Positions 25,544 through 48,024 of a DNA stretch of 64,000 nucleotides are shown here, one piece after another. Positions within the stretch are counted from its first letter, which is position 1. Every line of letters begins with the position of its first letter. Origin of the DNA: Mytilus galloprovincialis (taxonomy: Eukaryota; Mollusca; Bivalvia; Mytilida; Mytilidae). The DNA lies in NCBI RefSeq assembly GCF_965363235.1, contig NC_134839.1, forward strand, positions 96,677,743-96,741,742, in the 5' to 3' direction. The notes beneath the pieces were generated by a model that saw only the letters and a list, made by a program, of their open reading frames with translations, made no database searches and was not told where the DNA came from. The position numbers and the translations under genes are program-made.

Positions 25544-27987
25544 TTACATCCCTGTCCTTTTGGTCTTGAAGTAATTAACAACATCGTTCCATGCCAAGCT
25601 CTTTAAATCCATGATTTTATTTTTTGTTTTTTTAGATGTTTGAAGTCTATTTTGTCGATATAACTGATGACCAATTGCGTTTTGTGTTGATTGTCTTTTG
25701 AGAAGGTGCTGAAGAAATAAATTTATCGTGGTAGTTGACGGGATTGAAGTCGTCGTACCTGTAGTTGCAGTAGTACCAGGGGTAGTACTAGTAACTGTTG
25801 TAGGACTAATGGTAGTAGTGGTGGTAGTAGGAGCGGTAGTAGTAGTGGTAGTAGGAGTAGTAGTAGTAGTAACAATTGGTTGTGTTATGTTTGGCTTTTT
25901 GCCAAGTTCGATCAATATTGCAGCAAACCATGCATCTATTTCTTCGTCAGAACTATCGCTATCGTCGTCTTCTTCACTCTCATTTACTCTGACGTTGAAT
26001 GCTTTTATTGTTTGATTTTGTATTGCATACAAGAAATTTAAAGTTGAGTTTTTAGTCATTTCGTCTGACTCCTCGCTTTCGTTCGATTCATCGCTGTCTT
26101 CTGTTGCATTTACCTTTTTGGTTTTTATATTAGAGATTGATGTATTTCCTTTTAGAAAGGTTAATCTAAGTGCCTGTAAATGCTTAAAAGCACTTCTCGT
26201 TGCGGCATCTTTTGTCCCGAGACTGTTGACGGCCATCTTATTAAAATGGAGAAATTTATTCGATGGTTTTGATTTTCTTGCCTTTTTCAGCCTTCTGTTG
26301 GTCTTTTTCTTTTTTAAAAATTTCAATAGTTTCATTGCATGCAAGGCTTTAGCTGTATTATAATTACTTATTGTATTTCTTATCTGATTTGAAGGGTTTG
26401 CTGTTGTAGTTGTTGCTGTTTGTGGTGGTGGTGGTGTTGATTGGCCTATTAACTGTAATAACTGCTTCATGTGTTTATTTGTTTTCAAATTTTGTGATGT
26501 TTCAGCAGTTTGAGATCCAAACATGAGCATGCTCATCAGTTGTTGATGGTTATTCATCTGATTGTTTATCATTGGATTTACTGCTGCAGTATTGATAACA
26601 TTATTCATTGGATTCATTGCCGCAGAATTGATAACATTATTCATTGGATTCACTGCCGCAGTTTTGATAACATTATTCATTGGATTCACTGCCGCAGAAT
26701 TGATAACATTATTCATTGGATTCATTGCCCCAGAATTCAAAACATGAGTCATTGGATTTATAGCCGCAGAATTGATAAAACTATTCACTGGCTGTATTTG
26801 TGGTATCGGTGTGCTTGCTTGTGGGAAGGTATGTTGTACTGGCTGAGCCGCACTTGCTTTCTTTTTACCAAGAAGTAATTGCAAACGTTTTAATTGAGGA
26901 GCAAGTTTATTATTTGGATCAATGTTCCCTGCTATAAAACCCAAATCGGGCATTACTGGAGTAGTAGTGGCCATATTATTTGAGTTAATATTCAAATTAA
27001 ACATACCACCCCCGGGAATTTGATGTTGAATTTTCATCTGCCCTCCTGGAAGACTTTTTGTTAGCTGCGGCGATGGTGCCGGCATTGGAATCATCAGCTG
27101 GGATGCAATAGATTCTGCAATCAATGCCGTTAGTGGATCTAAAGTTGTGGTCTCTCGAAAGCCATGAGGTTTGCTTTGACTAGCACCTGATAAAATATTG
27201 TTACCCTGCAACGAATGCAATGTTTTCATGCTTTCAGAGTTAGTAAACCCTTGCAATTGACCCATCGCTGACATGAGAGATGACTGTTGTGATTGTAAAA
27301 TTGGAGACGAATGTCCTCTCTTGAACGAATTAAGTATCGTGTGAGTGTTTGATTTTTTAGCATGGTTGGATATTAACTGTTTTACATCCACAATGTGATT
27401 AGTGGAATGTAATTTAGTGTCCAATACTGTATTAGTGTGTGTTTGTGGATTATAAAACAGACCTAATAATGATTCAGTCGTAGAGGTAGGCGAGACTGTT
27501 GTAGAGGTAGGCGATGGTGTTGTGTTTGAACTGTTCAGTAAATGATTTATTATTCCTTGTAGAAGGACAGCAAGCGCTTCTTCTTCTGAGCTTTCGCTAT
27601 CATTATCCTCAGAATCAGAATCATCGTCGTCGAGAAAGGTTCTTGTCAAATTTTGAATTAAGCTGTTGTTCAATAACTTTGCTAGTTCCATTTCGTCACT
27701 TTCGTCGGAATCATCATCGTCGTCGTTTTGTTTTGCAATCATTGATCTTACTGTGGGAACTAAATGAGTTGGTACTTTGAATTTTTTAACTGCTTGTGAG
27801 GTTAAATTTTTCAAATATTCGTCACTGTCGTCATCTTCTTCTGAAGAAGAGTCGTCTTCGAATACCTCACATCTGTCATCCTCAAAGCATCTCATCCAAA
27901 CTTGCATACTCTTCTCTAATGCTGCTTGGTACTGACAGACTGCTGGTTCACAGCAAGGTTTATTTACATCTCTGAAGCATGTCATAC
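25544..27987 (-). CDS. Secreted-protein gene, exon 5 (main coding exon)
   Basis: This 2444-base exon encodes residues 153-966. It completes the Cys domain (MTCFRDVNKPCCEPAVCQYQ) and carries all acidic clusters, the Asn-rich repeats, the basic patch and the C-terminal Thr-rich stretch, ending KTKRTGM and stop. The acceptor is TTTTTTGCTTAATAG and the first two bases finish a Gly codon split with exon 4. The ATG at 27985 is therefore internal and not the true start. Several open frames on the opposite strand are shadows of its low-complexity codons. Confidence 0.92.
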
Positions 27988-30900
27988 CTATTAAGCAAAA
28001 AAATAATCAAATACAAGTTACAAAAATAAGGAATTCAGTTTGTTCTATCTGATTATATATATTTATTTTGAATTACGTTCGTAACTAGTGTATATCCTCA
28101 AATATTAAGCGACACAGTTATTGAACTGAATTTTGCATGGCTGATATAGTTATATTCATTTTTGTAAAAGTTAAATCTTAAGAAATTGAGTAATAAATCA
28201 AACTTATTTATAATTGCAAAACTATTATGGAAAACTTTAACATGACAGAGCTTCATTTTGTGCTTGATATCAAGAACGACCAGAGAATTAGGATATACTT
28301 AGCTACCCTTCGTTACTGTGAGACTGTTTTGAATTTGCCTTTGAATTTTATATTTTGTTACACATTTTTACATACCAATTTCACAGGCACAAAAATCATT
28401 ACATTGTTCTCCAAGCTGCGCTCTGGAGTTCGAACATGTTCCATTTATTGGAGGTCTAGATCTGTACGGACCTGCAAATAAGATGTCTTTGTTTACTTTC
28501 GTTACTATTATAAATATATAAATATGTATATTCTACTTTCCGTCGCTGATTGCTCATTATTAAGTTGAACTAGTTCATAGTTCTCTGATTAAAGACTATT
28601 TCGTGAATGTGCATGAATTTTTGCCACGTGATATAATGCAAATAACACCCCAAAAAATATTCCATTGAAATGTATCTTTTGGAAGGCAACAAACACGAAA
28701 TAATCATCATTAATTTCTGTCATATACTAAATGAAGAAAAGAATAGGTGGACACTATTATGTTGAAACTAAATAAAACAAAAAGAAAATATAAAAAAGAA
28801 GCATTCAAGAAAAACAGAAAAACAGTGACAAAAAAAACAAGAAATGGTGGATATTGAGCTTACAGTGGAAACTAGAACATGCCAAAATATAAAAAGATCG
28901 TTTCAATGTGATATGAATGTGAAATATATTTTGAATCAGACGAACTTTCGAAGTGCTACCTCTTGAGTTTTTAAACACCATTCCATAGGGAAAAATCTAC
29001 AAATCCGCACTTTATTCTGACTCCCAATCATATAACTTTGTTTAAATCACGGCTAAGGAGATAAGCTGTAGGTAATATTTTTGGGTTGGTCAGGCTTGGT
29101 TCGAACCCACCGACTTATTTTCTAGAGACGAAGTCGAATATGTATACATATAGATTCTACCAATAAACTGAGAGTTGAATGTTTAATGCTAGGTTTGAAG
29201 ATCAGCACTATAAATAACTTTTCACTACCACGGTAGCGGAATCTGATTCCCTGTTTATTTTTACACGATGTTTTCGCGATTTTTAAATTTTTTTTTCAAT
29301 GAAAAGATAGTATTATTTAAGTTTTGACAAAAGAAGAAACGAGATCAAATGAATAGCACGTTAAAAAAAGTTATAAATTTCCCGGTCGTGGAAAGAGTTA
29401 GAAAAATAAATTTGAAAAAAAAATGTTTATCAAGTATGCAAACCCTTATCTAGAAGTATAACAATGGATCTAAGGCATCCGTCCGATGATGAACACACGA
29501 TCTTCAATGCGACCTGCAATGTGTTTGATTCAATACGGAACTTTATAGCCGACATAAGATAAATTAACTATGCATCTACTTATAAGTAAATCTGATCATG
29601 ATTTGTTGTCTGCTTTAATTTTTATATCATTAATCAATTTCACAAACTCGAATTTAAATCATGATTGTAACAGCCTGGAAATCAACATCAAGGCTGAACA
29701 TATTATACACATCAAAACTGACAATTCACGATGACAGAACATATTACTCATGGTGTGTTTATTTTTAGCATGATTATATACATATGTAAGTGTACACATC
29801 TCTTCCTCCGACAATAAAATTAAACATCAATATGAAGGTTAGCTAGTAAGCAGTCTAAAATGTAAATAACTCAAACTCAAATAAATTTGTATGTATTACT
29901 GTCTATACCAGACCAAATAAACTAATCATAGATACCAGAATTGAAATTGTGTATCTACGCCGGACGCGCGTATCGTCTACAAAAGATTCATCAATGACGC
30001 TCGAATAAAAAAAAAGTTATAAAGGCCAAATAAAGTAGGAAGTTGTAAGGCATTGATGACCAAAGTTCCTAAACGTTTTGCCAAATACAGCTAAGGTCAT
30101 CTATTCCAGATGTAGAAAAGACTTGGTATAAAAAAAAATCAAAGTCTTGTAAAAGGTCAATTTATAATTATGACCATATCAAAGATAGTTCATGTCAACT
30201 CAGAAGTGCTGAATACTGGGCTGGTGATATCCTCGATGAATTAATACTCCACCAGCAGTGGGATCGACTTAGTAGTTGTAAATAAACTCATCATATATAC
30301 CACAAATTTTGTATTTACGCCAGACGCGCGTTTCGACTACAAAAGACTCATTAATGACGCTCGAATCAAATAAAGTTATAAAGGCCAAATAAAGTACGAA
30401 GTTGAAAAGCATTGAGGACCCAAAATTCCTTAAAGTTTTGCCAAATACACCTAAGGTAATCTATTCCTGAGGTAGAAAAGCCTTCGTATTAAAAAAAAAG
30501 TTTTGTTAATAATTAATGATTATGACCATATCAATGATAATTCATGTCAACACATAAGTGTTCTGTTCTATTGAAATTTCAATACAGTCTACAAAATAAA
30601 GTAGTGTCGATGTCTTGGTAATTATTTTAAATAACTTGTTCAGTCAAAGTATCGGTCATTCAAGAAGTGACCGCAAAGCAGATCTTAAAATCACGTATAT
30701 TGTACAATTAAAAGTAGGCATTAAGTATTACCATTCTTTTGACTTGAGTATTGTTCAGTGTTTTTGTACTACCGTATATCCTAACGACACTGGTCTTACT
30801 TACGTACTGGCAAATGATATGTGATAAATTTTTTATACCTAGGACAGTCCTAGTAACCATAAGTTTGTTACAAATTGACGGGTCTCTTACAACATGAATT

Positions 30901-33900
30901 CATAAAAATAATGACAAAGTCATTAGTTATTCTCAATTGAAAAAAATATCATAGATTGTTGTTTTTTTTTTACATCCAGTGGCAAATAAATAAAATTTCT
31001 TTACAATCCAAGAATCAATTATGTTTTATTGTAGGATAACGATGATAAAGGTGAGCTATCTCATTCAGTTTCAAGTATCATATTTTTAGCAAAGATATAC
31101 ATATATTCAAGCAGGCTATTCTTACCGGTTGCATCAAACACTTCTGACATCACAAGAACTTTTTGGTTTAGATCTCGACAGCAAGATGACAATGGACAAT
31201 CTGCCGATGTTCTACAAAAATTAGGAGGTAGTGTAGTAGGTGAAGGCGTTGTTGTTGTGGATTCTGTTGTTGTTCCTACCGCAGTTGTCTGGCCAGATGT
31301 CGATAATGAGATTCCAGGTGGCATTATATGATAGAACATCGGATTAATGACGATTGGAGCTCGCGTTGTTTGTTGATTTTTGACAAATGGATTATATATA
31401 TTTGGATCAAACAGGACAGCTGACTGAAATACAAAAGAGAAAAAATATGAAAATAATGATTTTTGAAACAGCTCCTATGGAAATTGCAGAACTTAATTAT
31501 TGATTGAATTAACAAATGATAGGGAGGGAATTTTTATTTACTCTTAACATTGATTAAATTAATTTAAAACAACAAGGAAACTGATGAATAAAGAAATAAT
31601 TATAGGTTAGAGGTAACACTTACCAACGATCCTGATATCACAGACAGTAGTACCTAGTAATATAAATAATAGAAAAATAAAAAAAAAGATGTATAATACT
31701 GTCATTCACTTTAACTTTCAGTAAGTGAATATATTCAAATGTTGTTCTATGCATTATTTGTTTTGATAGTGTGTCATTGACAAGTTTGATAAGTATTGTT
31801 GTTATAGTAGACACAATCTTTTAACTTGACTGTATCGCTAGTAATGGATATCTAGAAACCCCTTTTATCAATACATAAATCTGTTAACTTGACTGTATCG
31901 CTAGTAATGGATATCTAGAAACCCCTTTTATCAATACATAAATCTGTTAACTTGACTGTATCTCTAGTAATGGATATCTAGAAACCCCTTTTATCAATAC
32001 ATAAATCTGTTCACTTGACTGTATCGCTAGTAATGGATATCCAGAAACCCCTTTTATCAATACATAAATCTGTTAATTTGACTGTATCGCTAGTAATGGT
32101 TATCTAGAAACCCCTTTTATCAATACATAAATCTGTTAATTTGACTGTATCGCTAGTAATGGATATCTAGAAACCCCTTTTATCAATACATAAATCTGTT
32201 AATTTGACTGTATCGCTAGTAATGGATATCTAGAAACCCCTTTTATCAATACATAAATCTGTTAACTTGACTGTATCGCTAATAATGGTTATCTAGAAAC
32301 CCCTTTTATCAATACATAAATCTGTTAACTTGACTGTATCGCTAGTAATGGTTATCTAGAAACCCCTTTTATCAATACATAAATCTGTTAATTTGACTGT
32401 ATCGCTAGTAATGGATATCTAGAAACCCCTTTTATCAATACATAAATCTGTTAACTTGACTGTATCGCTAGTAATGGATATCTAGAAACCCCTTTTATCA
32501 ATACATAAATCTGTTCACTTGACTGTATCGCTAGTAATGGATATCTAGAAACCCCTTTTATCAATACATAAATCTGTTAACTTGACTGCTAGTAATGGAT
32601 ATCTAGAAACCCCTTTTATCAATACATAAACATTGGAGTATTTCAAAATCTTTAATAAAAATTTGCCAGAACTAGTGATATTAAATAAGTAAAAAGGCTT
32701 AAGCAACACATTTCTGACTTATCAAAAGTTTTAGCTCGAGTCATTGCACATTTTAGTACTTTCCATCTTTATATACTCTTATATACCATTGCTTGGAGTA
32801 TTAGTTTTCTTTTCGTCTATGTCATTATAATATCTATTAGTTGTATCTGCAATATCTATTTTCTTCGGAAATGTGAAATTTAGACATACTGTAAGGTTAA
32901 ACTTCGGAGTTGATTTAAAATACATATATAGGTAAACAATGAATGTGGTTGCTAAATTTGATAGATGATTTTTTTGGTGCTTCTTTGTTAAATATTTGTT
33001 GGTTTTTGTTCTATTTGAGATTGTGACATGGGGATGACTATTGTACCCCTATTTTGACAATTTTACATATTATATCTATTTTGTTCACGCATCGTTGTAA
33101 ATATAATGGAATTTGATGCAACTGTCATACAAGAGAGGTTTAGAGCTATAAAACCAGGTTCAATCCACTCTTTTCTACATTTGAAAATGCCTGTACTAAG
33201 TCAGGAATATGACATTAACCAATTTTCCGACAATAAGAAACTTCGGTAAAAAAGATAAAGTCAAACAGAGAAAGACTTCGAAAAACACTACATAGAATCA
33301 TATTTCAGCATCATGAATCCTATCAGGAGCTGAAGTAAACCAAAAATGAAATAACAAAAATACGAAACTCAAAACGGAAATTTCCTTAACAAATTGAAAA
33401 ATCAAAAGCTCAAACACATTAAACGAATGGATAACAAATGTCATGTTCCTGACTTTTAACATACATTTCTTTATGTCGAAAATGGTGAGTAAAAATGTTT
33501 GTATAGCTACCTAAACCTCTCAGCTGTAGGAAAGTCGCATTAAATTTCATATTCCAAAGTGCTTCGGTATATTCATCAGTTTCTACCCATAAACGTAACA
33601 CGTCCCATTCGTGACAAGAAAACAGCAGGTGATAAGTTACATCATTGTTTTCTTAAGTTTTTCCAAACACTATTTTTCCTTTTTCGAAATTTGAAAGAAT
33701 ATAAGAAAACTTGATGAAAAGTTTCTCCGTAATCAAAATACACCATCGATAAAAAAAAAAAGTAAGATTGCTTTTGCCTTTTTCGTATTTTACTAATAAA
33801 TTGACGATTTCCAAAACTAGAATACTAGTAACCTTTGTTTTTTTTTCAATCTTGAATTGCATTCGTTAAGCATTTAAGTACTTGAACCTTCGTTTAAGAT

Positions 33901-36900
33901 TTTAAAAATTGTACATAAATCTTCGTTAAAGATTTTGCTTGAATAGTATTGGTTAAAGATTCTAAAACTTGAACAATATATCGTAGAATTTTAACATACA
34001 AATCTTGGCTAAAAGCTTCTAGAATAACTACGCAATAAATGTACCTTATCTTAAATACTGTATACTTTGTGTTTTACATACACATAATTATGATTGTAAA
34101 AAACGATATTGTTCTAGCTCAGTGTTCTAGGCTTTGATTACAGGAAAACACCACATTCGCCACGGAGGTAAGACAAGTGCATGACAATATTAAAGTCTTT
34201 GAATATAAACGAAGCATAAGTGTCCATCGATCTGACAACGAAATATCAGCTTTGCCCATAATTAAAACGTTCTACATTCTATTTTCCGTAATTACATCAA
34301 CGCGAGACATATCTCTGTGTCAACAGGTAATGTGTTTTATTATAATCGTCCTAGGTATTATTCGTGTCCGAGAACATTCACACTTTTATTATTACATATT
34401 ATTCGGTTTATGTAAAAAAAATTGTAAACATCAATATATTTAATATTATTCATGGCCGAGAACATTCACACCTATTATTACATATCATTATGTTTATGTA
34501 CAAACACAATGTAAACATCAATATATTTAATAGTATTCATGGCCGAGAACATTCACACTGTTATTACATATCATTATGTTTATGTACAAAAATATGTAAA
34601 TATCCTAGGTATGCTGTAATATTTATTGTTATGAAATATGACCTGCGAGAGTGAAATTAGTGGTCACTCCATTAAAAGATAAACGACCAGTATGTCTATA
34701 TCTATCAATGTCGTGACCATTAAATTATTATTGTTTGCTGTTTTTATGTTAATTTATGCAAATGAACAAGTAAGAATCAATATTTGGCCGGAAATGTCCA
34801 TCTTATAATTAGTACTTCCCTACTAAACTTAATATAAAGCTAAATATGTTAGCATGAGCAACATTTTTGATGGCGCAAAATACCTTTTATTGAGTTGGGT
34901 TTTTTTTTTTTTTTACTTTTAAAAACATTAATATGCTTGATGTGATTGAACTTTTGATTTTGCCCTTTTGATTTGGACTTTCTGTGTGGAATTTTCCTCG
35001 GAGTTCAGTATTTTTGCGATTTAACTTTTTTCTAGCTAATATTTAGAAATTCACTACAAAATCATTGAAGGTCTTATTATTATTGAATTGATCAATGCTG
35101 CGATTTATGTTATGAAATTCAGTAAATAGGCAAACATGTTTTATTAAGAATTGACAAAAAGAGGGGAAAAAGTTCAGAATAAAGATAGTAGGGTGAGAAA
35201 ATATAAGGAACAGAAAATATTGCAAAAAATAATAAAGAAAAGAGAAAAATTGTATATATTTTTTTGTTTTGTGAAATACCGTCACTCTTTATTCAGATAT
35301 GCATAATGCTTTACCGAAATAATTGCTTTAAGTTACTTATGTCAAAAAAGAAACTAAAGACGTAAAAATATTTGCGGTATAACATTTGGCTATTCATATG
35401 TTTTAAAACATTGATTCGAGGATGTTTGTGGTATCATTATTGGTTAATTAAAGCAACCACAATGAATTGTTACTAAACATACCATCAGATGTATATATAG
35501 GTCTATAATTTTTAATATGCAATGTATATGATTGATTTCTCTGACATATGTTAAAGGTTTGAGATAACGTCGACGATGTTACTGTTTTATTTTATTGTAG
35601 CAATGTAGTTATTTCCTGAACACTGATATTTAGGAGCGTTTTGTTATCAACCTTACATCATACCATATTATGAAATAAAAAACTTAATATGTTAGTATGA
35701 TAAGGTGGTACCCAACACTTTCACTAAAATTAATTTGGCTCGTTTAATTTTCATAAAATTTTGACAAAGTATTTACTAAAAGTATTTACTTTGACCCTTT
35801 AACCAAAATATATAAATTTCAAAAATTTTGAACCAACCATTTTATCAGAAAAATTACACTGGTTATATAGCAGATTGACAAACTCCAATTTTGATCATTG
35901 AGAAGCTTTATATTCCCTTTACAACACAACGTTATTAAAACGTTTGGCTGATTTTACAGAGTTATCTCCCTATAGTGTTAGGTACCATCTAAAGTACTCT
36001 GATTGAGTGCTGCATGATATGAAACACATTTTTAAAGGATATTCCAAAAGTTCTGTGTTTGTGTAATAAATAAAAATTCATTTTGAAACATCCGAAACCA
36101 ACACGGATTTATATCTAAAAAAACATTCCATTGTTGCCTTTATGTTTAAGATGAACACTTAAATATTACCGTTAATTAAATTGGTATTTCATTTGCGACA
36201 AAAGCGCCAAAAAAACTTTAATTTCAAAGATGAGAATTTAGTATTCAAATACCTACAACATTTTAAGCAGACCATGTTTTGATCATTGAGAAGCTTTATA
36301 TTCCCTTTACAACACAACGTTATTAAAACGTTTGGCTGATTTTACAGAGTTATCTCCCTATAGTGTTAGGTACCATCTTAAGTACTCTGATTAGATCCCT
36401 TTTTATCATATTGACAAATTTATCATTCGAAAATCATTATCATTTTCATTTTTTACCATTTTCTATCAAATAAATATAGCAGTTAGTGCTGCATGTTATG
36501 AAACACATTTTTAAAGGATATTCCAAAGGTTCTGTGTTTGTGTAATAAATAAAAATTCATTTTGAAACATCCGAAACCAACACGGATTTATATCTAAAAA
36601 AACATTCCATTGTTGCATTTATGTTTAAGATGAACACTTAAATATTACCGTTAATTAAATTGGTATTTCATTTGCGACAAAAGCGCCAAAAAAACTTTAA
36701 TTTCAAAGATGAGAATTTAGTATTCAAATACCTACAACATTTTAAGCAGACCATGTTTAAGTTATAAATTGTAGGTTCTGATGTCGATTTTTTTTTTAAA
36801 TTGTAAAAATACGATTTTTTGAAATAAAAAAAAAATTAAAAAATTAACATCAATGGTTTTGAAAATAACACTCTAAAATAAGATGGCTTTCGGAGAATAT

Positions 36901-39900
36901 GGCTATGGCGGAAGTAACTGAAAACTTCACGTCATCCTAACTTTGGCGTTTTCTCTTTGAAAAAATCTTTTCAAATTTCTCATATTTTTGTTCTATTTTT
37001 GTTTTTTTTTTGTTTTTTTTTTGTTTAGTCACCTAATTAAAATAAAGACTTCCAGGACTAATAGCATTAGAAGACAGTGTTGTAAGTATAAAAGACCTAC
37101 GAAATCGAGTTTTATGGTTGAATGCTATTCAGGTACTTTTTTAAATGCAAATATCTATAGAACCTCTTCTTACTCTAAACCTGAAATATCTGTTTTAAAA
37201 CGGGATGGCGTCTTCAAGTTTAGCTGTTTTCGTGCAGTTTATAAACTATACTTGATGTGTACGGAATGTAAACATGATTAACACATGATTATTATCTAAG
37301 ATCTGCTGTTATTATTATGATATAAATCCATAATACTCTTTGTTTAAATGTAATAATGCATATCATTATAAGCACTTAGTATCGTCCTCTAAAATAAGAC
37401 CGATTTGCCAATTATTTACCTCGGTAATGTTTATCCAATTTCATTATACATGGAAAATACATTGCCTTGTATCGTTTCTTTGGTTGACTAGTATACATGG
37501 CGCAATATAATACTTCCTAATTTGCGCAAATGATACATGTAGAATGCAAACGTAGTAATAACCCAAATGAGTTGTGGCACAAAAGTCCCCTTTTAAGCGC
37601 AAACGCATTTCTCCTTTTACACTACTGACCGTCAAATGAAAAAAGAAGAGCAACATCTCTGAAAATTTGTAAAAGAGGCAAAACTTAATGTTATTAGACC
37701 CATCATTATCCATATGTTGCTGTGGTATTGTGAATTATAGTAAAGATAATAGTGGTCAGAAAACATGTATGGTGGTGAAATAAGTACAAACAAATTGGTG
37801 CTGTCGAATTATACAAGGATTTAAATTAATGACAAAATATAATAGATATAGGAAGTTGTGGTATGAGTGCCAATAAGACAACTCTCCATCCAAGTCACAC
37901 TTTATAAAAATAAACCATTATAAGTCAATGTACGGTCTTCAAAACGGAGCCTTAGCTCACACTAAACAGCAAGCTAGAAAGGGCCCCAAAAATATACAAG
38001 TGTAAAACCTTTTATTAGATGAAAATTCAATTCAATCAGTCAAATAGGTACCGTTAATGAGATGGTATTTTATCATAGATTTTCAACCTCTGTTTTCAAA
38101 TAAAAGCAATTCCCATTAAGAACACTCAAGCGTTGCATTCTAGGCATACGATTCCCTTGAAACCGTTTGCTGCAACAATATTTCAGAATTTGCTTGACCA
38201 TTTAATGATTAATTTTGTAACACTATTAATTTTATTAACCCCTACGAAATCAAATAAGTGCAGGTAGGTTAGTCTGGTAAAAGTATATATGCAATATGAC
38301 CTATATTGATAAAATGGTTAAACGTACTAACTTATATTTCTATAATTTGAATCAATCATCGTTTCTATATAGAAAAAAATATAGCCGTAATGTCCACTTT
38401 GAGATATGATTGTCATCGATATACATAAAAAAATCGTTCGAAAATGTCAAACATGACCATGTCAATACATTATTTCCTAAAATTTATCTTGAGTGGACAG
38501 TCGACATATAAAAGACTGACTGAAAAATATATATGTTCAAGGTTATGTGTAGGGAGAAAAGCAATAAAGAGTCAATAGGTCATTTTTAATTTATTTCAGT
38601 AGCCAAACATAGTTTATCATACCTCTTCGTTCGATGTTAATCTGTTACAGTAACAAGAACCTGAATTGCTCACCTGTAATTTGTTGTGTAAATCCTTCAT
38701 CAATGATTATTTTTCCTTTTCAATATATATGTTAAGGAGTGGCTTAAAATCGCAATTGAATGTTCTTCGTATCTGCCATATTTTCTTCAAAAGCAAATAA
38801 AATGCATTTCACCCCTGTACTCCATTTTAGCCATAGTGGCTATGTTTCTTGAAGTACATGAAATAAAATACAAAATACATGTAAAGGCCCAAGTCTGGTT
38901 GAAATTGATACAGCTGTTTCAAAGGGAGAAGATTTTTTGAAGTAAACACACTAGATGAACAAATTTTGAAAAAAAGACTTTAAAGGGCAATAACCAAATA
39001 AAGGGACATTTGAAAATTTTGGTCATACAATTTATTTGAAGATCTTCCTTTGCTGAAAATTTTTGCTTATTACAGTTTATCTTTATCTAAAATAATATTC
39101 AAGACAACCGAAAATTGCAAAATTTACTTAAAATTATCATTTCAGGCTCAATTACCAAAAAACAGATACCTGATTTGGCGGATAGTTTCAAAGCAGGTAG
39201 ACATTGACCTATTGAATAATTTATCTTCTTGAATGTTTTAGTTTTTAAGATACAAGTTAAAAATTGCAGTTTACCCAGTGTTCTAATTTTAGCCATGTTG
39301 GCCATGTTATTCGACGAAACAGAACTTTATTCTAGAAATCCTAAAGATCATTCAGCTTAAGTTTGGTTGGAAATATGGTTTAGTAGTTTCAGAGAAGATT
39401 TGAAATATTAACAAAACATGATAAACAAATTGTGTAAAATTGTCCTTAAAAGGAAATAACTCCTTAAGATGTCAATTGATAATTTTGGTCATATAAACTT
39501 ATTGTGAATCTTATTTTGCTGAACATTTTTCTATGTTTACAAATTATATTTATATATAATAATATTCCAAACTGCAAAATTTCCTTAAAATTAAAAATTT
39601 ATTGGCAGCAACCAAACAGTGAGTAATTAGATTCATCCGAAAATCTCAGGGTTGATAGAACTTCACATAGTGAACACTTATGCCCCTTGTCAGAAAATGC
39701 ACTAAATGTTTAGGTTTTTTTAGATATAAGTCAAAAACTGCATTTTTACCCCTATGTTCTATTTTTAGTTATGGCGGCCGTGGTTTTTGACAAAACAAAA
39801 AATGAAATACAAATTTTATTCTAGGTACCCTAAGGATCATTCAACTTAACTTCTAACAAAATATAATGACATATTCAAGCTCTAACTTACATTTCGGATT

Positions 39901-41424
39901 AGCTGAGGAATCTATCCTCCATAAATAGTAGAAAATATATAAACCATACACAGTAAACAGTAAGGAATCTATCTTCCATACACAGTAGGAAATATAAGTT
40001 TCTTGAAAGGGAGGAAAATTAATTTTTAAAAATTGAAATAATCTTGCTGTCAAAAATTCCTTTACTGAAATAACAATAATCTAAAATTCCATGTCTATGT
40101 CTAAAAATGAGCCAAGACAGCTGTATTATAAACTCTTGTTTCTTTAGTTTTGGTAAATTTATACTGTCGATTTAGAGAACAAGATGATAATCATTTATGT
40201 ATAAATAGTATGTGAAATTAAACGAACTTACTTCTTGGTGTTCTTTAATTTATAAAACTTTTAAGGCAATCCGTATACAAGTATAAAAAACCAGAAGTTC
40301 ATTAAATACTTTTGCTTGAAAACCATTGCAAATATGTTATTGAAGTGAAACTGGTATAAAAAGAAGATGTGGTATGCTTGTCAATGAAACAACTATTCAC
40401 TAAAACAAATTAGCATTAAGTGCCTGGATCAGTACAAACCTAATACAAACCAAGACTCATGCGCTAACTCAATTTGGAGAATGAAATAACTTATCACGAG
40501 AGAATCGGACTTGACAAAAAATTGTGACTCGAATTTCAATTTGAACTAACCTAAGACATATATATGGATACCTTGCCTATCTCTTAGTTTAGAGTTTGGC
40601 ACTTGCTGTCTTCTCTTACAGTGGCGATGTCTTAGGTTAGTTCAAATTGAAATTATAAGATATATATAAGATCGATTGAAACTAGCCCTGATGGCAACTG
40701 TTACCTTCTCAAATTAACCCATTTAAACTATTAAGAAAGTTGTCAATAAAATAATTTAATTAACATATTTTAAATACATTAATTTTTTTTCTTGGCTTTC
40801 GGAGAATTTGGCTATGGCGGAAGTAACTGAAAACTTCACGTCATCCTAACTTTGGTGTTTTCTCTTTGAAAATCTTTCCAAATTTCTCATGTTTTTGTTC
40901 TATTTTGTTTTGTTTAGTCACCTAACTAAAATAAAGACTTCCAGGTCAGATGAGGAAATATCATTAGAAGACAGTGTTGTAAGTATAAAAGACCTACGAA
41001 ATGGAGATTTATGGTTGAATGATATTCAGGTACTTTTTTAAATGCAAATATCTATAGAACCTCTTCTTACTCTAAACCGGAAATATCTGTTTTAAAATCG
41101 GGATGGCGGCTTCAAGTTTAGCTGCTTTTGTGCAGTTTATAAACTATACTTGATGTGTACGGAGTATAAACATGATTAACACATGCTTATAATCTAAGAT
41201 CTGCTGTTATTATTATGGTATAAATCCATAATACTCTTTGTTTAAATGTAATAATGCATATCATATAAGCACTTAATATCGCCCTGAAGTAAAAAGCATG
41301 TACAAGCAATTCATATTTCAAATAGACCATTAACATGTTTAAAAAATTGTGACATGCATTAAGAATTAATTTTAAACTTATAAATACATACCGGTAATAT
41401 AAACAAATGACTCGTCATGACCAT
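25544..41424 (-). CDS. Secreted acidic, Thr/Asn-rich protein with a prokineticin/colipase-like Cys domain, 5 coding exons
   Basis: Coding exons in order are 41424-41392, 31653-31624, 31423-31126, 28471-28376 and 27987-25544; together 2901 bases, about 966 residues. Layout: signal peptide about 1-22 (MVMTSHLFILP, VLLSVISGSL); Thr-rich linker; Cys domain 91-170 with the order C-x5-C-x4-CC, C-x10-C, C-x-C-x5-C, as in prokineticin, dickkopf and colipase folds; Asp/Ser/Glu clusters at about 196-209, 241-253, 272-289, 780-793 and 820-835; Asn-rich repeats about 555-625; a Lys/Arg-rich patch about 705-731; a poly-Thr stretch about 855-903. Ser residues followed by acidic residues are of the kind secreted Fam20C-type kinases phosphorylate. 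I infer an extracellular matrix or biomineral role; no known family name is claimed. Exon 1 is the least certain part because its intron is 9.7 kb. Confidence 0.85.
26562..26785 (-). repeat. 36-bp in-frame tandem repeat inside the secreted-protein exon
   Basis: About six copies of a 12-residue unit of the form NPMNNVINSAAV follow each other, with Ser/Thr/Lys and Ala/Gly swaps. The period is a multiple of three, so copy number can change without loss of frame. Neighbouring units are very similar in DNA, which points to recent growth. Confidence 0.9.
28376..28471 (-). CDS. Secreted-protein gene, exon 4 (middle of Cys domain)
   Basis: It encodes about 32 residues: PYRSRPPINGTCSNSRAQLG, then EQCNDFCACEIG. 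The acceptor is TATTTGCAG and the donor G|GTATGT. Phase 1 in and phase 1 out, so the exon could be skipped without shifting the frame. The C-x10-C-x3-C-x-C spacing joins smoothly to the cysteines of exons 3 and 5. Confidence 0.88.
28472..31125 (-). other. Intron 3 of the secreted-protein gene
   Basis: The part 28480-29920 shows nothing clear except a perfect pol III B-box-like word GGTTCGAACC at 29098-29107. The part 29930-30560 holds two copies of family C. The rest is AT-rich. Confidence 0.45.
29930..30560 (+). repeat. Two tandem copies of dispersed repeat family C
   Basis: The first copy runs about 29930-30290 and the second about 30290-30560. Both hold a form of GACGCGCGTNTCGNCTACAA, AATAAAGTANGAAGTTG and CCAAATACAGCTAAGGT. 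Pieces of the same family occur near 6790-6850, 12700-12790, 20640-21050, 52630-52760 and 53370-53720. Confidence 0.65.
31126..31423 (-). CDS. Secreted-protein gene, exon 3 (N-terminal linker and first cysteines)
   Basis: It encodes residues 22-120: SAVLFDPNIYNPFVKNQQ, a linker, a Thr-rich stretch TTTESTTTTPSPTTLPP, and CRTSADCPLSSCC. The acceptor has a long pyrimidine run ending TTTCAG and the donor is ACCG|GTAAGA. Phase 0 in and phase 1 out. The frame stays open past the donor, but the splice joins the Cys domain correctly. Confidence 0.88.
31624..31653 (-). CDS. Secreted-protein gene, exon 2 (30-bp microexon)
   Basis: Thirty bases encode VLLSVISGSL, the end of the signal peptide. The acceptor is ATATTACTAG after a T-rich run and the donor TTG|GTAAGT, a strong site. 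Phase 0 on both sides. A longer unspliced frame that starts at an upstream ATG and also looks hydrophobic is out of phase with exon 3, so I did not use it. Confidence 0.72.
31815..32630. repeat. Minisatellite of 63-bp units, about 13 copies
   Basis: The unit begins TTAACTTGACTGTATCGCTA, goes on with GTAATGGATATCTAGAAACC and ends ATACATAAATCTG. Copies differ at only a few positions (A/T in GGNTATC, C/T in TTAANTTG); the last copy lacks seven bases. It lies about 160 bases upstream of the microexon on the gene's strand. Confidence 0.95.
34355..34610 (+). repeat. Three tandem copies of a 90-95-bp unit
   Basis: Each copy holds GTCCGAGAACATTCACAC or GGCCGAGAACATTCACAC, an AT-rich stretch with TATTACATATNATT and TTTATGTACAAA, and ATCAATATATTTAATA. 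Two overlapping frames stay open across it because of the repetition. Confidence 0.8.
35702..35997. mobile_element. MITE-like element with GGTACC-containing inverted ends
   Basis: The left end reads AGGTGGTACCCAACACT and the right end AGTGTTAGGTACCATCT, imperfect inverted repeats of about 17 bases. There is no coding capacity. From memory this looks like a common bivalve MITE. Confidence 0.55.
35895..36760. repeat. Tandem duplication of a 380-480-bp segment
   Basis: The block starting GATCATTGAGAAGCTTTATA at about 35895 returns at 36279, and the block GAAACACATTTTTAAAGGAT at about 36021 returns at 36500; each pair is nearly identical over 100 and 270 bases. The second copy has about 100 extra bases (36386-36485). 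The duplication includes the right end of the MITE-like element. Confidence 0.85.
36886..37394 (+). repeat. First copy of a 500-bp exon-like block, decayed
   Basis: It matches 40795-41287 almost throughout, from GGCTTTCGGAGAAT to TATAAGCACTTA. The exon-like part is damaged by small length changes relative to the second copy, so the peptide there is lost. Confidence 0.8.
37855..38010 (+). repeat. Family B dispersed repeat copy
   Basis: It holds AGTTGTGGTATGAGTGCCAA, AACTCTCCATCCAAGT, GGAGCCTTAGCTCACACT and AAGCTAGAAAGGGCCCC in the same order as the copy at 10155-10320. Confidence 0.7.
38810..39860 (+). repeat. Two degenerate units of the 2975-3632 repeat family
   Basis: Parallel phrases recur in two units: TTTTGGTCATACAATTTATT and TTTTGGTCATATAAACTTAT, AATAATATTCAAGACA and AATAATATTCCAAACT, and the closing TTTTAGCCATGTTGGCCATG and TTTTTAGTTATGGCGGCCGT. 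This matches the closing part of the copy near 3540-3580. Nothing codes here. Confidence 0.6.
40532..40654. repeat. Perfect 28-bp inverted repeat with a 67-base loop
   Basis: The arm 40532-40559 begins AATTTCAATTTGAACTAACC and its exact reverse complement fills 40627-40654. All 28 positions pair. Confidence 0.9.
40795..41287 (+). repeat. Second copy of the 500-bp block, with an open exon-like stretch
   Basis: Within it, 40945-41029 reads SDEEISLEDSVV, then SIKDLRNGDLWLNDIQ, between an acceptor-like CTTCCAG and a donor-like CAG|GTACTT. A longer version could start at 40918 after TTTTGTTTAG. The composition looks like real protein but I do not recognise it. It lies 105 bases from exon 1 of the secreted-protein gene, on the other strand. 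It may be a captured or duplicated exon carried by a repeat. Confidence 0.5.
41392..41424 (-). CDS. Secreted-protein gene, probable exon 1 (start codon, first half of signal peptide)
   Basis: Thirty-three bases encode MVMTSHLFILP and end at CCG|GTATGT, a good donor, in phase 0. Joined to the microexon they give MVMTSHLFILPVLLSVISGS, a convincing signal peptide with likely cleavage shortly after. It is the only ATG-led, in-phase, donor-bounded candidate I found upstream. A TATA-like TAATAAAAGG stands about 115 bases before the ATG. Confidence 0.6.
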
Positions 41425-42524
41425 TTCCTGATTAGAAAATAAACAACGAAAATACCAAGAGCCAAGCACTTGTTTTTCTCAGCACATGGTCTATCGTTGG
41501 TGTGTATTCACAAACAAACATCAAGTACAGGCAATTATCCTTTTATTACAAGTAATAATTATACGACGACGGTAAATGATTAGTAAGGACAAGAGTTGTG
41601 ACACTTATAAGGTACGTTTTGGACAAGTAACGAAGTAAATACAATATTAACGGCGTGCACCTGTCAATGCCTTGTTCATATCGATTGATTCTCTATTTAT
41701 ATCATCTTATTCAGAAAATGAACTTAAATTTAAATATATTTTCATCTTATATACAGTTTTATTGCCATATCAACTAGAATTTAATGTATACTGAAACCGA
41801 GAAAAGAAAGAATATAAAGATGAATTAAAATAAATAAAAATATAAGAACAAACCAAAACATAGGATATATTTTCGAATGCAGCCATATAAATCTAAATCT
41901 TATGTGCTTACAGTAGTTGCAATATAGAACATCCTTGTCCTACGATTATTGATAAATTCCATTCATTTTTTAAAACTAAATATCATCACGTGTCTGGTTA
42001 CATGTATTGCAAACATATAAGTAAATATTAATAAAACATAAACATGAGGTCAACGTCATGTAAACCCTTCCAGATTGACCTGAAAACATTTTAAGTCTGT
42101 TAACAAAAACTCGCAAATTTGAAGGCACTTCTGTGCGTTTCATATTAAAAGGACATTATTTAAAAAAAAAGAAGTTAAACTTTGTTCTACAAATTGTAGG
42201 ACACTCGCGCTCGTTCTAAAGATATAATCTTATCAATTGATGGTATAGTTGACGGAATGCCGTTCAATGATACTCGTCAGAAGGACATCAAATACTAGAT
42301 GATTTGAGTAAGACAATTGCATCTTTTGCAAACATGCTTGTGTCAAATGAAAACGAATACACTCCAAGGGGGCACTCGGAACTTAATATCTCATAACAAC
42401 CATCACTTTTTCTTCAAAGTTAAAAATCAAATTAAGGTCTTCGCTAATTGAATAAGGCGGATATAAGCAATGACTGTAGATGAAACGGTTCATCGGACTT
42501 TACAGACAGACGAAACAATAAGCC
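41425..42524. other. Upstream region of the secreted-protein gene
   Basis: AT-rich DNA with no exon or repeat recognised. It probably holds the promoter and 5' UTR of the minus-strand gene, but no element can be assigned with confidence. Confidence 0.4.
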
Positions 42525-42795
42525 CAAAGTAAAATCACAAAAATACCGAACTCCATGGAAAATTCTAAACGGAAAGTCCCTTATCAAAATCAAAAGCTCA
42601 AACACATCAAATGAATGGGAGACAACTGTCATATTCCTGACTTTGTACCGGCATTTTCGTAAGTAGAAAATGGTGGATTAAACCTGGTTGCATAGCTGGA
42701 TAAACCTCTCACTTGTATGACAGTTGCATACACTTCAATTATATTGACAACGATGCGTGACCAAAACAAACAGACATAATAGGACTTACATGTCA
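42525..42795 (-). repeat. Family A dispersed repeat copy, nearly full length
   Basis: The reverse complement gives GCATCGTTGTCAATATAATT, TATGCAACCAGGTTTAATCC, CAGGAATATGACAGTTG and GGAGTTCGGTATTTTTG in family order. Confidence 0.7.
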
Positions 42796-42814
42796 AAATA
42801 AGGGTACAACAGTC

Positions 42815-43335
42815 AACATTGTGTTATAATCTTAATAATAATAAAGAACAAATAATTAATCAAGAAAAAAGAAAAACAAAATATAGACAATTTAGATTTG
42901 ACTCTATAGTCTCCCTTCCCGATAGCGTCAGGTATAATAGCAACATAACTACACAAATCTGTAATGAACTGCCAACCACTGTCGAATGGAAACATCTTTT
43001 AACCAATTCAAAAAATTGGTACAAACATGGGACCCAAGTAACAGCTCATGCCAGTCCATTGCATGCATATGGTGTTTATGCCTGTTTCATTTTACTTTTT
43101 ATTTGTTGTGTGACAATTTGACTTGTGCAATCTTATTATTAACTTGTGCTATGTTTTAAGTGTACTATGCTTTTAACTTATATATGTCATGCTTAAAATT
43201 GTGTTGTTTTTATGACTTTTGTATGTGTGTATTGTATTTTGGTATTAAGTTGATTTGGAAAGCTCATTAGAGCTTGTGTTTATGAAGTTTATTGAATATC
43301 GACTCTAAATAAAACTTTAAAGTGAATTGAATTGA
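42815..43335 (+). mobile_element. Possible 3' fragment of a retroelement
   Basis: An open frame at 42819-43121 gives 100 residues (for example FDSIVSLPDSVRYNSNITTQ, then a hydrophobic C-end FILLFICCVTI). It is followed by a T-rich tail, AATAAAACTTTAAAG and the short repeat TGAATTGAATTG, as at the 3' end of some LINEs. I do not recognise the protein. It could instead be unrelated sequence. Confidence 0.3.
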
Positions 43336-43359
43336 TCTTTCATTGCGTATGCAATAAAA

Positions 43360-43470
43360 TTGAGAATGGAAATGGGAAATGTGTCAAAGAGACAACAACC
43401 CGACTATAGAACAGACAACAGCAGAAGGTCACCAACAGGTCTTCAATGCAGCGAGAAATTTCCGCACCCG
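43360..43470 (+). repeat. Dispersed repeat fragment (AAAGAGACAACAACCCGAC)
   Basis: It matches 13140-13260, with GAAATGTGTCAAAGAGACAA and a block ending TTCAATGNAGCGAGAAA. Confidence 0.65.
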
Positions 43471-43579
43471 GAGACGAAGCTTGTATAATTTGTTTTTTAA
43501 TGTTTGTGCTTACTTTTAAGTGTGCTTTCCCTATTTCTAGCATGATTTTGTGGTGTAGTGTATGTTTGTATGTAGTTGT

Positions 43580-43980
43580 TAAAAGCTCTCTAGGGCCAAT
43601 CAAAATTTCTATCCCAAAGTAGCATGCACATTGAATCCATCTTTATCTAACAACATAGGTCTTGTCGGGTACAATAATAGTCATAGTAAAATTAATAGAC
43701 TAGAATCAGTTTTTAATAGAATATCACAAGGGGCTCTGCAGAAAGACAAACCAGCCACAAAAGACAGTTGGTTCACAAAAGTCATATTATTACAAGTTTA
43801 AAATACAGATTACCTTATTAGTCAATAGCATTTTGAATAAAGTTTAACCCCTATTAAAATTAAAGTGAAAAAATCTGTCAGGAAGCAAATCGATACCTAC
43901 GACCGTTTCATTCATTCGTGTTTTGCTCTTACCTCAGCGAAGGACCATTACTTGACTGAACTCTCAAAATCTTAAAAAAA
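43580..43980 (+). pseudogene. Unrecognised coding-like remnant in two frames
   Basis: One frame (about 43575-43801) reads NIGLVGYNNSHSKINRLESV, then FNRISQGALQKDKPATKDSW, and stops. A second (about 43846-43978) reads PIKIKVKKSVRKQIDTYDRF, then IHSCFALTSAKDHYLTELSK, and stops. The mix of residues is protein-like and unlike the AT-rich surroundings. It may be a broken exon or transposon gene; I could not assign a family. Confidence 0.35.
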
Positions 43981-43984
43981 ATAT

Positions 43985-45145
43985 ATCAATAATTGCGGGA
44001 TCTTACTACGCAAACTGTAAAACACTAAGGAATTAGTACTTAACTTATTGAAGATATAAGTGCATTACTCTGCAACTGTCAATAAAATTGTGGATAAGAA
44101 GCTTTTGCTAATCTAATAGAATAAATTAATAGAAAACTTTGTTTCGAAACTAGATTTATACATAAAAGTGGAATAAACTGACTTTGGAATTTTGCCGAAT
44201 GCCATGTTGCATATACTATCATACATAACGATACGAACGACTCCAGCAATCAAAGTGTGAAAAAACGAGATAAGATAACACTTCAATCGAAAAGTAGATT
44301 AAAATTTAAAATAACATTTTTGGTGTTCGATCGGTGTATTTTTTGTGGGATGTCCCTTTTGATGGATGTTATTACTAGCCCATTCGTAATATTGAAAAAA
44401 TTGATATTTCTAATGTAAGTAAAGGATTCATAAATGGTTGGCTGAAGAAAAATGGCACTGCTAGAGTATTCTTTTACATTATTTGCGTCTGCTTTTCTGT
44501 GATGTATCGTATGAGTACCACTAAGATAAGGACCAATCTTCTTACGTTGTGATAAAGAGAAAAAATGCAAGCCAATTTTAGTGTGAGATAGGGGTTTTCC
44601 CTAAAAAATAACAAAATATCAAACATGAAATAAACTCAACTGCTTATAGGCCATTACATATGCCTGTCACAGGACAATCAATCTGTTCTTTTTCTTTGGA
44701 GAGCCTTATCAACATGCCAGTGGTAGGATTTGAATCTTGAATAATTTCTACCATACTTTCATTTTGGCCAAATCATTACTTTCACTTTCAACAACAATGA
44801 TTTCCCACATCTTTTACTTATTTCAATATATACGCAACTAATAGAACCATTTTTACTGCACTCGTTCTATTATAGCAGTCTATGTCGTATACAGTCACTG
44901 ACCCGATCTAACTTGATATCACTTTTCCTTATGAATCTCTAAATAGTACGTGTTGTAGCCGGATTTTGTGACGAACTCTTCAACCAGTCCCTGTTTCAAT
45001 ATCTTTTTTTCAACAGGTGCAAAACAGTATAAAGCCAATTATAGTGTGTAATGACCTGACATATCAACGATATAAAGGTTCGGCTCGAAACGGGGAAAAA
45101 TCTTGACAGAGCCTCGCATTTCCCCGTTTCTGACCTCGTCTATAT
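43985..45145. other. Gene-free AT-rich stretch
   Basis: No exon is supported. A 95-residue minus-strand frame at 44283-44570 has no features that suggest a protein. Confidence 0.35.
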
Positions 45146-46836
45146 ATTATTGTCTATTTAGATAGTAAACATACAAATCAAACAGTAGTCAGAATACTCC
45201 GGAAGGAATATCCCAATATAATAATTGGGAACTATAGACCAATAATAAGAGGAATTTATAATGATATGAAGCCTACATATTCAGTCTGTGTAGTGTCGCC
45301 AGGAGATATTCTTTGTGAATCACCAGAGATACTAAAAAAGAAAAACAGGAAAAACAAGAAGGAAGCAAAACAGCAACAGGGAGAAGTTAATAATGCCAAG
45401 ATTGGCAAACTAGTAGAAATTACCAAAACTCTCTTATATAAATCAAATACATCAGATATTAAAGGCAATACACAAGAGAAAACAATAACAAATGAAAAAG
45501 TTGGTGCAAAGTCCATACTATTTACTGACAATATAATGGCGAAAGATAAGACAACACTGATACAACACTGATACAGTATTATTAACGAACTCCAAGGTAA
45601 ATTCAATAAAGGGAAGTCCATATAAAGCGAACAAAATCAAACGGTATCAACCAACGGAAACTGTCATATTCCAGACTTGCTTTAATATCCAATAACATAC
45701 CTATCTATTATGATTTAATAACAACTCAAACTTTACCCTTTTACACTTTCATACCAATCTTTCTCACTCCGCTCGCTCTGATTATGTTTATTAGATACAG
45801 TACATTATAATATACATAAAAGTCATCATATAAGTATTAATCATACAAGTCCAATTATCGAAAAAGAGAGATAACTCTAAATGTTGAAATAAACATTTTG
45901 TTTTTGCCAGGTAGATGTTTATTATGATTGAGCACACCTATGATGTTTTCTTTCTGCAATACACGTGAATAAGTCATCCTTTATAACGAAATTAATCAAA
46001 TAAAACACCAAAAACAATGTTGGTGAAATAGCAATGTTACGTTTGATTTTTTTTTATTTCAAACATTATTAATATAGAATGAGAAATGCATTACAAAGTA
46101 AAGGAAAAGAACAGACACAAGAAACTGGAGCAATAACCAGGCAAATGAAATAGGACTTGCTAAATACTCTAAAGATTTTTTTAAATATGATTAAAGAAAG
46201 TTTTGAGGAAAACAAATTCAGTACAACCACTTATTGTAGACAATGGTGAGCATATATTTGATAACAATGGAAAGGAAGATCTGTTTTATGATAGAGGTAG
46301 CCACCTTCGATGTTTTATAGGACAACATGCGTCAACCTGAGTGCACGGAAAACGAGTCAAAAAGAAGATTTTCGGCTAACTATCATTGTATTAACAACTC
46401 TAAAAATAAGAAAAGGTGATAAATTACAAACATATACACCTAGCAAGTATCCCGAAACATCAATCTCGAGAAATAGACAAAAATTGGTATTTCTTCATTC
46501 GTAAACACTGGTGAGCTGTGCTGACCATCCGCTATGTTTGATCATATATCAACATATAAACAACCTAGATAATGACCAGATTAAAAGTCTGCACTTATTG
46601 GTCTGCTATAAACTACTTACCATCATCTTCATTATAAATACATATAAAAGACGAAATGACCAATATAGCGATGAGGTCGGAAATATTATTCCAGACTACG
46701 AATATTTGGCTAGATCAAGACCCCATTTTAGAATGGAACATGTCGATTAGTTTACATAGAAATAGACAATTTAAAATACTGCATCTCGAAAACATCAACA
46801 CAGTCATTTGGACTCTTTTTATTCGTTATTCTATCT

Positions 46837-46965
46837 GGGGACATCCAACAGAACCCTGGACCTATACGGTGCACATGTGCCATTTATAGTAAACCTGTAG
46901 CCGAAAATCACCAAGGACTGCAATGCGATGAATGCGATGCTTGGTTACATGCAAAATGCGACGGT
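46837..46965 (+). other. 2A-like peptide followed by a PHD-type finger in the LINE
   Basis: The frame reads FVILLSGDIQQNPGP and then CTCAIYSKPV, LQCDECDAWLHAKC. D-x-E-x-NPGP is the 2A motif that makes ribosomes skip one peptide bond; here Gln replaces the usual Glu. Such 2A-like sequences at the start of LINE proteins are described for sea urchin elements. Whether this variant works is unknown. Confidence 0.65.
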
Positions 46966-48024
46966 CTTACAAAAAAAAAGTAAAAACACAAAAATACTGA
47001 ACTCCGAGGAAAATTCAAAAAGGAAAATCAAAAATCAAAAGGCAAAATCAAAAGTCCAAGCACATCAAACGAGTGGATAACAACTGTCATATTCCTGACT
47101 TGGTACAGGCATTTTCTAATGTAGAAAATGGTGGATTGAACCTGGTTTTATAGCTAGCTAAACCTCTCACTTGTATGACAGTCGCATCAAATTCCATTAC
47201 ATTGTCAACGATGCATGAACAAAACAAACATACTCAAAGAGTAAAAATGTCAAAAATAGGGGTACAACAGTCAATATTGTGTTATCATCTTAATATCACT
47301 ACATAAACAACAAATGTAACAAAGTAGCACAAAAAGGCATACATCAAATTCAACATTCTCATTTTGCTTTTCCTATACGGCTGAATTTATCTATGTAAAG
47401 TCTACCCATAAATGAAAGAAGGTTTTCATTACTGGTGTGAAATTGGTGCAAAAGAGGACTACAAGAAATTCCAGAACATCCATAGCTTAGTATTTCAGTG
47501 TCCACAATGCAGACTCCTGACATTCACAGATTGTTTCTTCATAAATGAATCAAGCACAGTAGTTGTAAACTGCAGAAGCCTAACTAGCGACAAGAAAAGG
47601 TAGTACTTCAAAATATGATTGAAACACATAAACATTATTCTAAGGACAGAATCGCACTTGCATGTTCCATTTGATTGGGGACTTTCCTTTTTGAATTTTC
47701 CTTGGAGTTCAGTATTTTTGTGATTTTACTTTTTTTGGACAACACAATAGCCAGTAGTGAAGTATTTCCAGACAATTCCAGAATCCATACAGAAAAGACA
47801 GAAAATTAGGAGAAGGAGGAGTATTTATAGCTGTTGACAACAACTATATCAAACGGAAATATTTACTGGAAGTGATTGTGAAATATCATGGTGTAAGATC
47901 AACACCCAGGGACGACAACCCCTATACCTAGGTACCTTCTATAGGCAGCCATACAGTGATATAGAAAAACTTGAAGTACTTGAAAAATCTAATACCTGCA
48001 TCATGAACACAAGGCAAAACCTAC

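Follow-up and report, generated by a model that had tools for sequence, protein, structure and literature searches.

How does a mussel gene come to join a compact cysteine-rich domain to several hundred residues of charged, repetitive sequence, and what might such a protein do? A locus of this kind lies on the minus strand of the window, the 64,000-nucleotide stretch of Mytilus DNA that was analysed here (Table 1). It is a true protein-coding gene of the mussel, and its cysteine domain belongs to a Mytilus gene family, a membership that is a new result of the present analysis. All three coding exons (A, B and C) have AG/GT borders, matching phases and no internal stops, and their in-phase splice gives 945 codons. 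Exon C sits inside an 820-codon open frame, and at the base composition of the window a run of 813 open codons beginning at a given start has a probability of approximately 3e-29. The open frame above exon A contains no methionine, so an exon further upstream is required. At the thresholds used, candidate exon 1 is the only first-exon candidate in positions 31424-50000, and with it the chain is 956 residues long. A short phase-0 first exon is also present in the array paralogs described below. By eye the candidate is weak as a signal peptide, and four such candidates, including this one, occur on the two strands of the window, a rate that predicts 0.58 in a stretch of the length of 31424-50000; hence we regard it as plausible but unproven. 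A sequence-only reading of this locus had described five exons with agreeing phases and a signal peptide. The in-phase splicing is borne out for the three coding exons, but four exons were found rather than five, and the signal peptide comes down to that one candidate.

Just upstream of exon A, in the presumed first intron, lies a 63-bp satellite (13 copies, 96% match, window 31815-32630), and an 86-bp tandem repeat (2.8 copies, window 34359-34604) is found between exon A and candidate exon 1. An open frame at window 49331-49828 has a sub-threshold match to an endonuclease-reverse transcriptase model (PF14529, E 0.0008, 19.7 bits against a cut-off of 27.4) and is perhaps a retroelement remnant.

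Table 1 Features of the tailed cysteine-domain gene, in window coordinates; residues are those of the 956-residue chain
Feature	Position	Strand	Residues	Description
Candidate exon 1	41392..41424	-		MVMTSHLFILP; phase-0 donor GTATGT; putative signal-peptide exon
Exon A	31126..31423	-		298 nt; AG acceptor, GTAAGA donor; leaves phase 1; Thr/Pro-containing lead and Cys 1-4 (C-x5-C-x4-CC)
Exon B	28376..28471	-		96 nt; phase 1 to 1; Cys 5-8 (C-x10-C-x3-C-x-C)
Exon C	25544..27987	-		Cys 9-14 and tail; ends at stop TAA
Cys 9-14 part of exon C	27869..27987	-		C-x7-CC-x4-C-x15-C-x5-C; end of family domain; from alignment with seven paralogs
Tail	25547..27868	-		774 codons; absent from 7 of 7 spliced paralogs; probably disordered
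Acidic cluster 1	27818..27859	-	186-199	EDDSSSEEDDDSDE
Acidic cluster 2	27692..27724	-	231-241	DDDDDSDESDE
Acidic cluster 3	27578..27631	-	262-279	DDDDSDSEDNDSESSEEE
Asn-rich repeat	26569..26791	-		INSAAVNPMNNV-like; period 36 bp, 6.2 copies
Basic patch	26273..26314	-	701-714	KKKKTNRRLKKARK
Acidic cluster 4	26060..26101	-	772-785	EDSDESNESEESDE
Acidic cluster 5	25940..25981	-	812-825	ESEEDDDSDSSDEE
Thr-rich stretch	25727..25870	-	about 849-896	Simple repeats at 25800-25871

The chain contains a single cysteine domain, which accounts for all of its 14 cysteines (1.5% of residues). The first nine are separated by gaps of 5, 4, 0, 29, 10, 3, 1 and 5 residues, in agreement with the spacing given in the sequence-only reading (C-x5-C-x4-CC, C-x10-C and C-x-C-x5-C). 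The domain continues past the ninth cysteine of that pattern with five more, at gaps of 7, 0, 4, 15 and 5 as read from the sequence. Pfam-A contains no family for any of the eight domain rows (the window gene and seven paralogs) up to an E of 10, and in the 945-residue chain the only Pfam match is New_glue, at 6.5 bits (cut-off 31) over residues 839-912. An NCBIfam scan gave a weak match to a bacterial methanobactin model in 2 of 9 rows (best E 0.024), and a phmmer search of the PDB with the window domain returned one chance-level match (E 1.7). The earlier statement that no named family has this layout thus holds within what was searchable. The NCBIfam scan and the profile permutation controls used a nine-row alignment that includes array gene g7, whose exon A is out of the family phase; the final alignment has eight rows, without g7, and the Pfam, PDB-profile and profile-profile tests on these rows had the same outcome as with nine.

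The window itself is part of contig C2. Searching the mussel genome with the window domain returned eight places: three from the gene itself, one on contig C2 at 112.62 Mb and four on contig C8 at 16.61-16.69 Mb. The C2 and C8 matches are weak (E 0.1 to 4), and reading these loci revealed the same exon modules. When an array member served as the query, 38 matches were returned, every one of them in C8:16.599-16.749 Mb; neither the window gene nor the C2 paralog was among them. Sorted by query range, they form a tandem array of 150 kb (G000:C8:16598938-16748689) with 12 exon-A, 13 exon-B and 13 exon-C matches, the genes of which are small, secreted and carry 14 cysteines. Exon A has homologues in both the C2 paralog and the array. 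A frame at C4:6275964 (L036), tried as a further relative, turned out to be a macro-domain protein. The seven paralog domains that were spliced (six from the array, one from C2) all have exact AG/GT splices in phases 1 and 1, as in the window gene, and all terminate four residues past the position of Cys 14. Seven upstream regions were examined, and each offers a first exon of seven codons that ends in a phase-0 donor (for example MKYLIIL, MKYFIVL or MKILIIL) and was chosen among several candidates for its recurrence. Pfam recognises no family in the six spliced array members.

The eight aligned rows have 19 invariant columns, 12 of which are cysteines; the C2 paralog is without Cys 10 and 11. 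Pairwise comparison gives z values of 12.1 (window gene against C2 paralog), 6.3 (window gene against array gene g2) and 9.1 (C2 paralog against g2), and in each comparison none of 2,000 shuffles that keep the cysteines in place reaches the score. By this measure the similarity within the family extends beyond the cysteines. Nine array copies of exon C (of 13 matches, g7 included) form 36 pairs. In 35 of these dN/dS is under 1 and in the remaining pair it is 1.01, which indicates that exon C of the array is under purifying selection. At least two array copies look damaged: exon A of g7 ends out of phase, and exon B of g8 contains an in-frame stop. Taken at the level of exon structure and alignment, the window gene is a member of a secreted family with 12 to 14 cysteines, built from a short signal exon and domain exons A, B and C, and the family is unnamed as far as it was searched.

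Each of the other members that we examined consists of the module alone, some 100 residues long; among all those examined, only the window gene runs on past the paralog stop, by 774 residues. The simplest account would be that the tail was gained by extension of the terminal exon past an ancestral stop, a direction that we infer; the reverse, loss of the tail in the other members, may also apply. All three forms (array genes, single paralog and tailed gene) are found in one genome, so the order of events is testable with other bivalve genomes.

From its N-terminal end the tail carries three Ser-Asp-Glu clusters, Asn-rich repeats, a basic patch, two further clusters and a Thr-rich stretch, and over its full length the chain counts 13 Ser-x-Glu sites and 14 sequons for N-glycosylation. 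The tail elements listed in the sequence-only reading (five clusters, Asn-rich repeats, basic patch and Thr-rich stretches) could all be located. The description of the protein as acidic has to be corrected: without modifications, the pI calculated for all 956 residues is 7.9, and net charge is -22 in residues 190-340, +14 in residues 690-790 and -8 in residues 790-870. The chain is a polyampholyte with acidic blocks, not acidic overall. A single-sequence AlphaFold2 model of exon C has a mean pLDDT of 38.8, with no residue at or above 70, and at this low confidence places a helix after each of the five acidic clusters, which lends weak support to a disordered tail with helical segments.

We also searched the genome (1.385 Gb, 331 contigs) with three overlapping pieces of the tail, scoring the best candidates and skipping simple repeats. 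The first 120 tail residues found their own gene only, the middle piece of 557 residues found itself and, at E values from 1.1e-4 to 0.86, 30 weak matches that overlap its Asn-rich repeats, and the last 129 residues found themselves and one place at E 0.61. The weak Asn-rich matches were considered as relatives and are read as shared composition. There is hence no clear tail relative among the best candidates scored in the three-piece search, and with simple repeats skipped this does not amount to proof that the tail is unique. Within the protein itself, 56 of the first 120 tail residues align with the C-terminal acidic block (41%, E 0.99). This hints, without proving it, that both blocks may be copies of one repeated unit. 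Elsewhere in the genome, a mussel foot protein-1 decapeptide array lies at G000:C4:52623277-52625448, in a 770-codon frame with up to 98% identity; this decapeptide marks Mytilus, and its presence supports the mussel origin of the DNA.

The cysteine domain had been likened to prokineticin and colipase, and in the order of its cysteines (C..C..CC..C..C..C-x-C..C) it does resemble colipase, dickkopf CRD-2 and prokineticin. The corresponding gaps are 5, 4, 0, 8, 9, 16, 1 and 5 in dickkopf-1 and 5, 3, 0, 10, 9, 11, 1 and 5 in colipase, so that six of the eight window gaps are within one residue of dickkopf-1 (5, 4, 0, 10 for 9, 1 and 5), and Cys 9 has a glycine at the third position ahead of it, an arrangement shared with dickkopf (GLSC) and colipase (GLTC). 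However, the loop between Cys 4 and 5 has 29 residues where dickkopf and colipase have 8-10, the loop between Cys 6 and 7 has 3 where they have 11-16, and Cys 9 is followed by five cysteines where one is expected for colipase, dickkopf or prokineticin. Prokineticins have ten cysteines in a set order; Cys 1-9 fit the part shared with dickkopf and colipase, with two loops of other length, and Cys 10-14 provide five options for the tenth cysteine. The hexapeptide AVITGA of vertebrate prokineticins is absent, Cys 1 being preceded by LPPNF; non-vertebrate prokineticin members reportedly lack it as well (PMC8398477).

At the level of residues, cysteine-anchored positions of five members of the family were compared with those of dickkopf-1, dickkopf-2 and colipase. 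All 15 comparisons are above the shuffle mean (z 1.5-4.2) and 13 have p <0.05, although these p values are optimistic because the compared positions were chosen by hand; the domain of the window gene is one of the weakest (z 1.7-2.0). The dickkopf model of Pfam matches neither the chain nor the eight domain rows, and the prokineticin model PF06607 matches none of the eight spliced rows up to an E of 10. An exon-by-exon search of the genome with PF06607 gave a match in none of 14 candidates, and the control genomes were also without a match. Profile searches of the PDB returned partial matches to an insect metalloproteinase inhibitor and to dickkopf-1 (E 0.2-6.7), the latter at E 0.42 and out of register. 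Profile-profile alignments with dickkopf-1, dickkopf-2 and colipase have a probability of 12-13% (local) and 2% (global) and are out of register too. Among permutations of the nine-row alignment including g7, 2 of 100 attain their score when the cysteine columns are kept and 0 of 100 when everything is permuted. The proposed likeness therefore survives in the cysteine order and in a few residues, and is not confirmed by the Pfam, PDB-profile and profile-profile tests. Distant kinship with colipase, dickkopf and prokineticin is likely but unproven, and we do not file the protein there.

The reading that we place first, a guess from composition with a probability of roughly 0.4, is that of a linker in the extracellular matrix of shell, periostracum or byssus. 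The compact disulfide head would dock to a partner (a protein, a glycan or a receptor), and the tail, if phosphorylated on its Ser-x-Glu serines, would bind Ca2+ or mineral and pack with oppositely charged matrix. The composition, the Ser-x-Glu sites and the precedent of accripin11 (see below) favour such a role, whereas the whole-chain pI, unlike that of strongly acidic shell proteins, is a point against it. Given that the paralogs examined have no acidic tail and that the six intact array modules have net charges of -3 to +3, the family as such is not obviously mineral-binding. A more specific proposal, in which a hormone-like disulfide module, elsewhere produced as a short secreted protein by the tandem array, became the anchoring head of a long phosphorylatable polyampholyte by terminal-exon run-on and so gave rise to a new class of mussel matrix linker, is tentative and must be called doubtful.

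The anatomy of the protein also fits a tethered ligand or a mucosal effector. A signalling ligand of colipase, dickkopf or prokineticin type (astakine-like), with a charged tail that tethers it to the matrix or sets its range or release, would explain the likeness of the cysteine gaps to dickkopf-1 and colipase and the residue likeness in all 15 comparisons. Several array members also have basic residues (RLRR-S, RLKR-S) directly before the domain, as in processed peptides, and prokineticins are reported from nearly all sampled lophotrochozoan phyla (PMC6425005). This reading is nevertheless unlikely, given that the Pfam scan is empty in all eight rows, that both profile-based dickkopf-1 matches are out of register, with a score that two cysteine-keeping permutations equal, that the hand-chosen positions flatter the p values, that the window member is among the weaker ones, and that the domain has four cysteines more than expected after Cys 9. 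A family of immune or mucosal effectors, that is, tandemly expanded secreted disulfide-rich peptides of which one has acquired a long mucin-like charged carrier, would account for 13 exon-C matches over 150 kb and for the damaged copies g7 and g8, as in arrays that turn over, and the Thr-rich stretch would suit O-glycosylation. Yet the six intact modules are not strongly cationic, and selection on exon C appears purifying, not diversifying, in 35 of 36 pairs, which makes this explanation quite unlikely. On the strength of these net charges, we also reject the straightforward view of the array as a set of strongly cationic antimicrobial peptides.

All of these readings take the tail as part of the protein. 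It might instead lie outside the mature protein or the transcript, either because a short domain is fused to an open frame or because the chain is cleaved at basic sites, of which 14 runs of at least two basic residues offer a choice; the paralogs, moreover, end just after Cys 14. We consider this very improbable: Cys 9-14 and the tail share one uninterrupted frame, so that no intron is needed between them, and 813 open codons are unexpected by chance.

If the account given here is true, it provides an entry to a mussel secreted protein family that is unrecognised by any Pfam model and a clean case of how lengthening the last exon can furnish a compact secreted domain with a charged, disordered body. 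Should the tail bind mineral, the window gene would encode a candidate matrix protein; should it not, the array would still be an unexplored peptide family.

A matrix linker, our leading reading, invites comparison with known shell proteins. The matches listed from the open-licence literature include no description of such a protein, and six family peptide strings found no match there. The portion of the M. galloprovincialis shell proteome study examined here names proteins that are M-, G-, R-, A- or S-rich and the types GRS, AGS, GYS, SGC, LKD, FGV, GFS and GYDK (PMC4517812). A protein headed by a cysteine domain and followed by Ser-Asp-Glu clusters, as encoded by the window gene, is not seen among the types in that portion, and colipase, dickkopf, prokineticin, Cys-rich and Asp-rich proteins go without mention in its main text (PMC4517812). 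The same portion includes unnamed M-rich and S-rich proteins, and its low-complexity uncharacterised shell proteins have, like the window protein, a biased composition and short tandem repeats (PMC4517812). The window protein may well already be present, unnamed, in annotated Mytilus genomes or among these S-rich and M-rich shell proteins.

A parallel in overall layout is offered by accripin11 (PMC9808598). The two differ in detail. Accripin11 has eight cysteines in another pattern (...x3-C-x12-C-x3-C-x6-C-x3-C) and a helical model, and its gap series of 3, 12, 3, 6 and 3 is not that of the window domain, which reads 5, 4, 0, 29, 10, 3, 1, 5 and then 7, 0, 4, 15, 5. Its mature protein has 103 residues with a C-terminal part of 39 (39-81 in the family), whereas the tail of the window protein runs to hundreds. 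In plan they agree. Accripin11 is a shell protein of bivalves, and in it and its pteriomorph relatives, one of them in Mytilus galloprovincialis, a secreted Cys domain leads into an acidic C-terminus that is disordered, a layout shared with the window protein, whose tail is probably disordered. In accripin11 this C-terminus is rich in Asp, and accripin11 is discussed as a possible linker between the mineral surface and the organic framework (PMC9808598).
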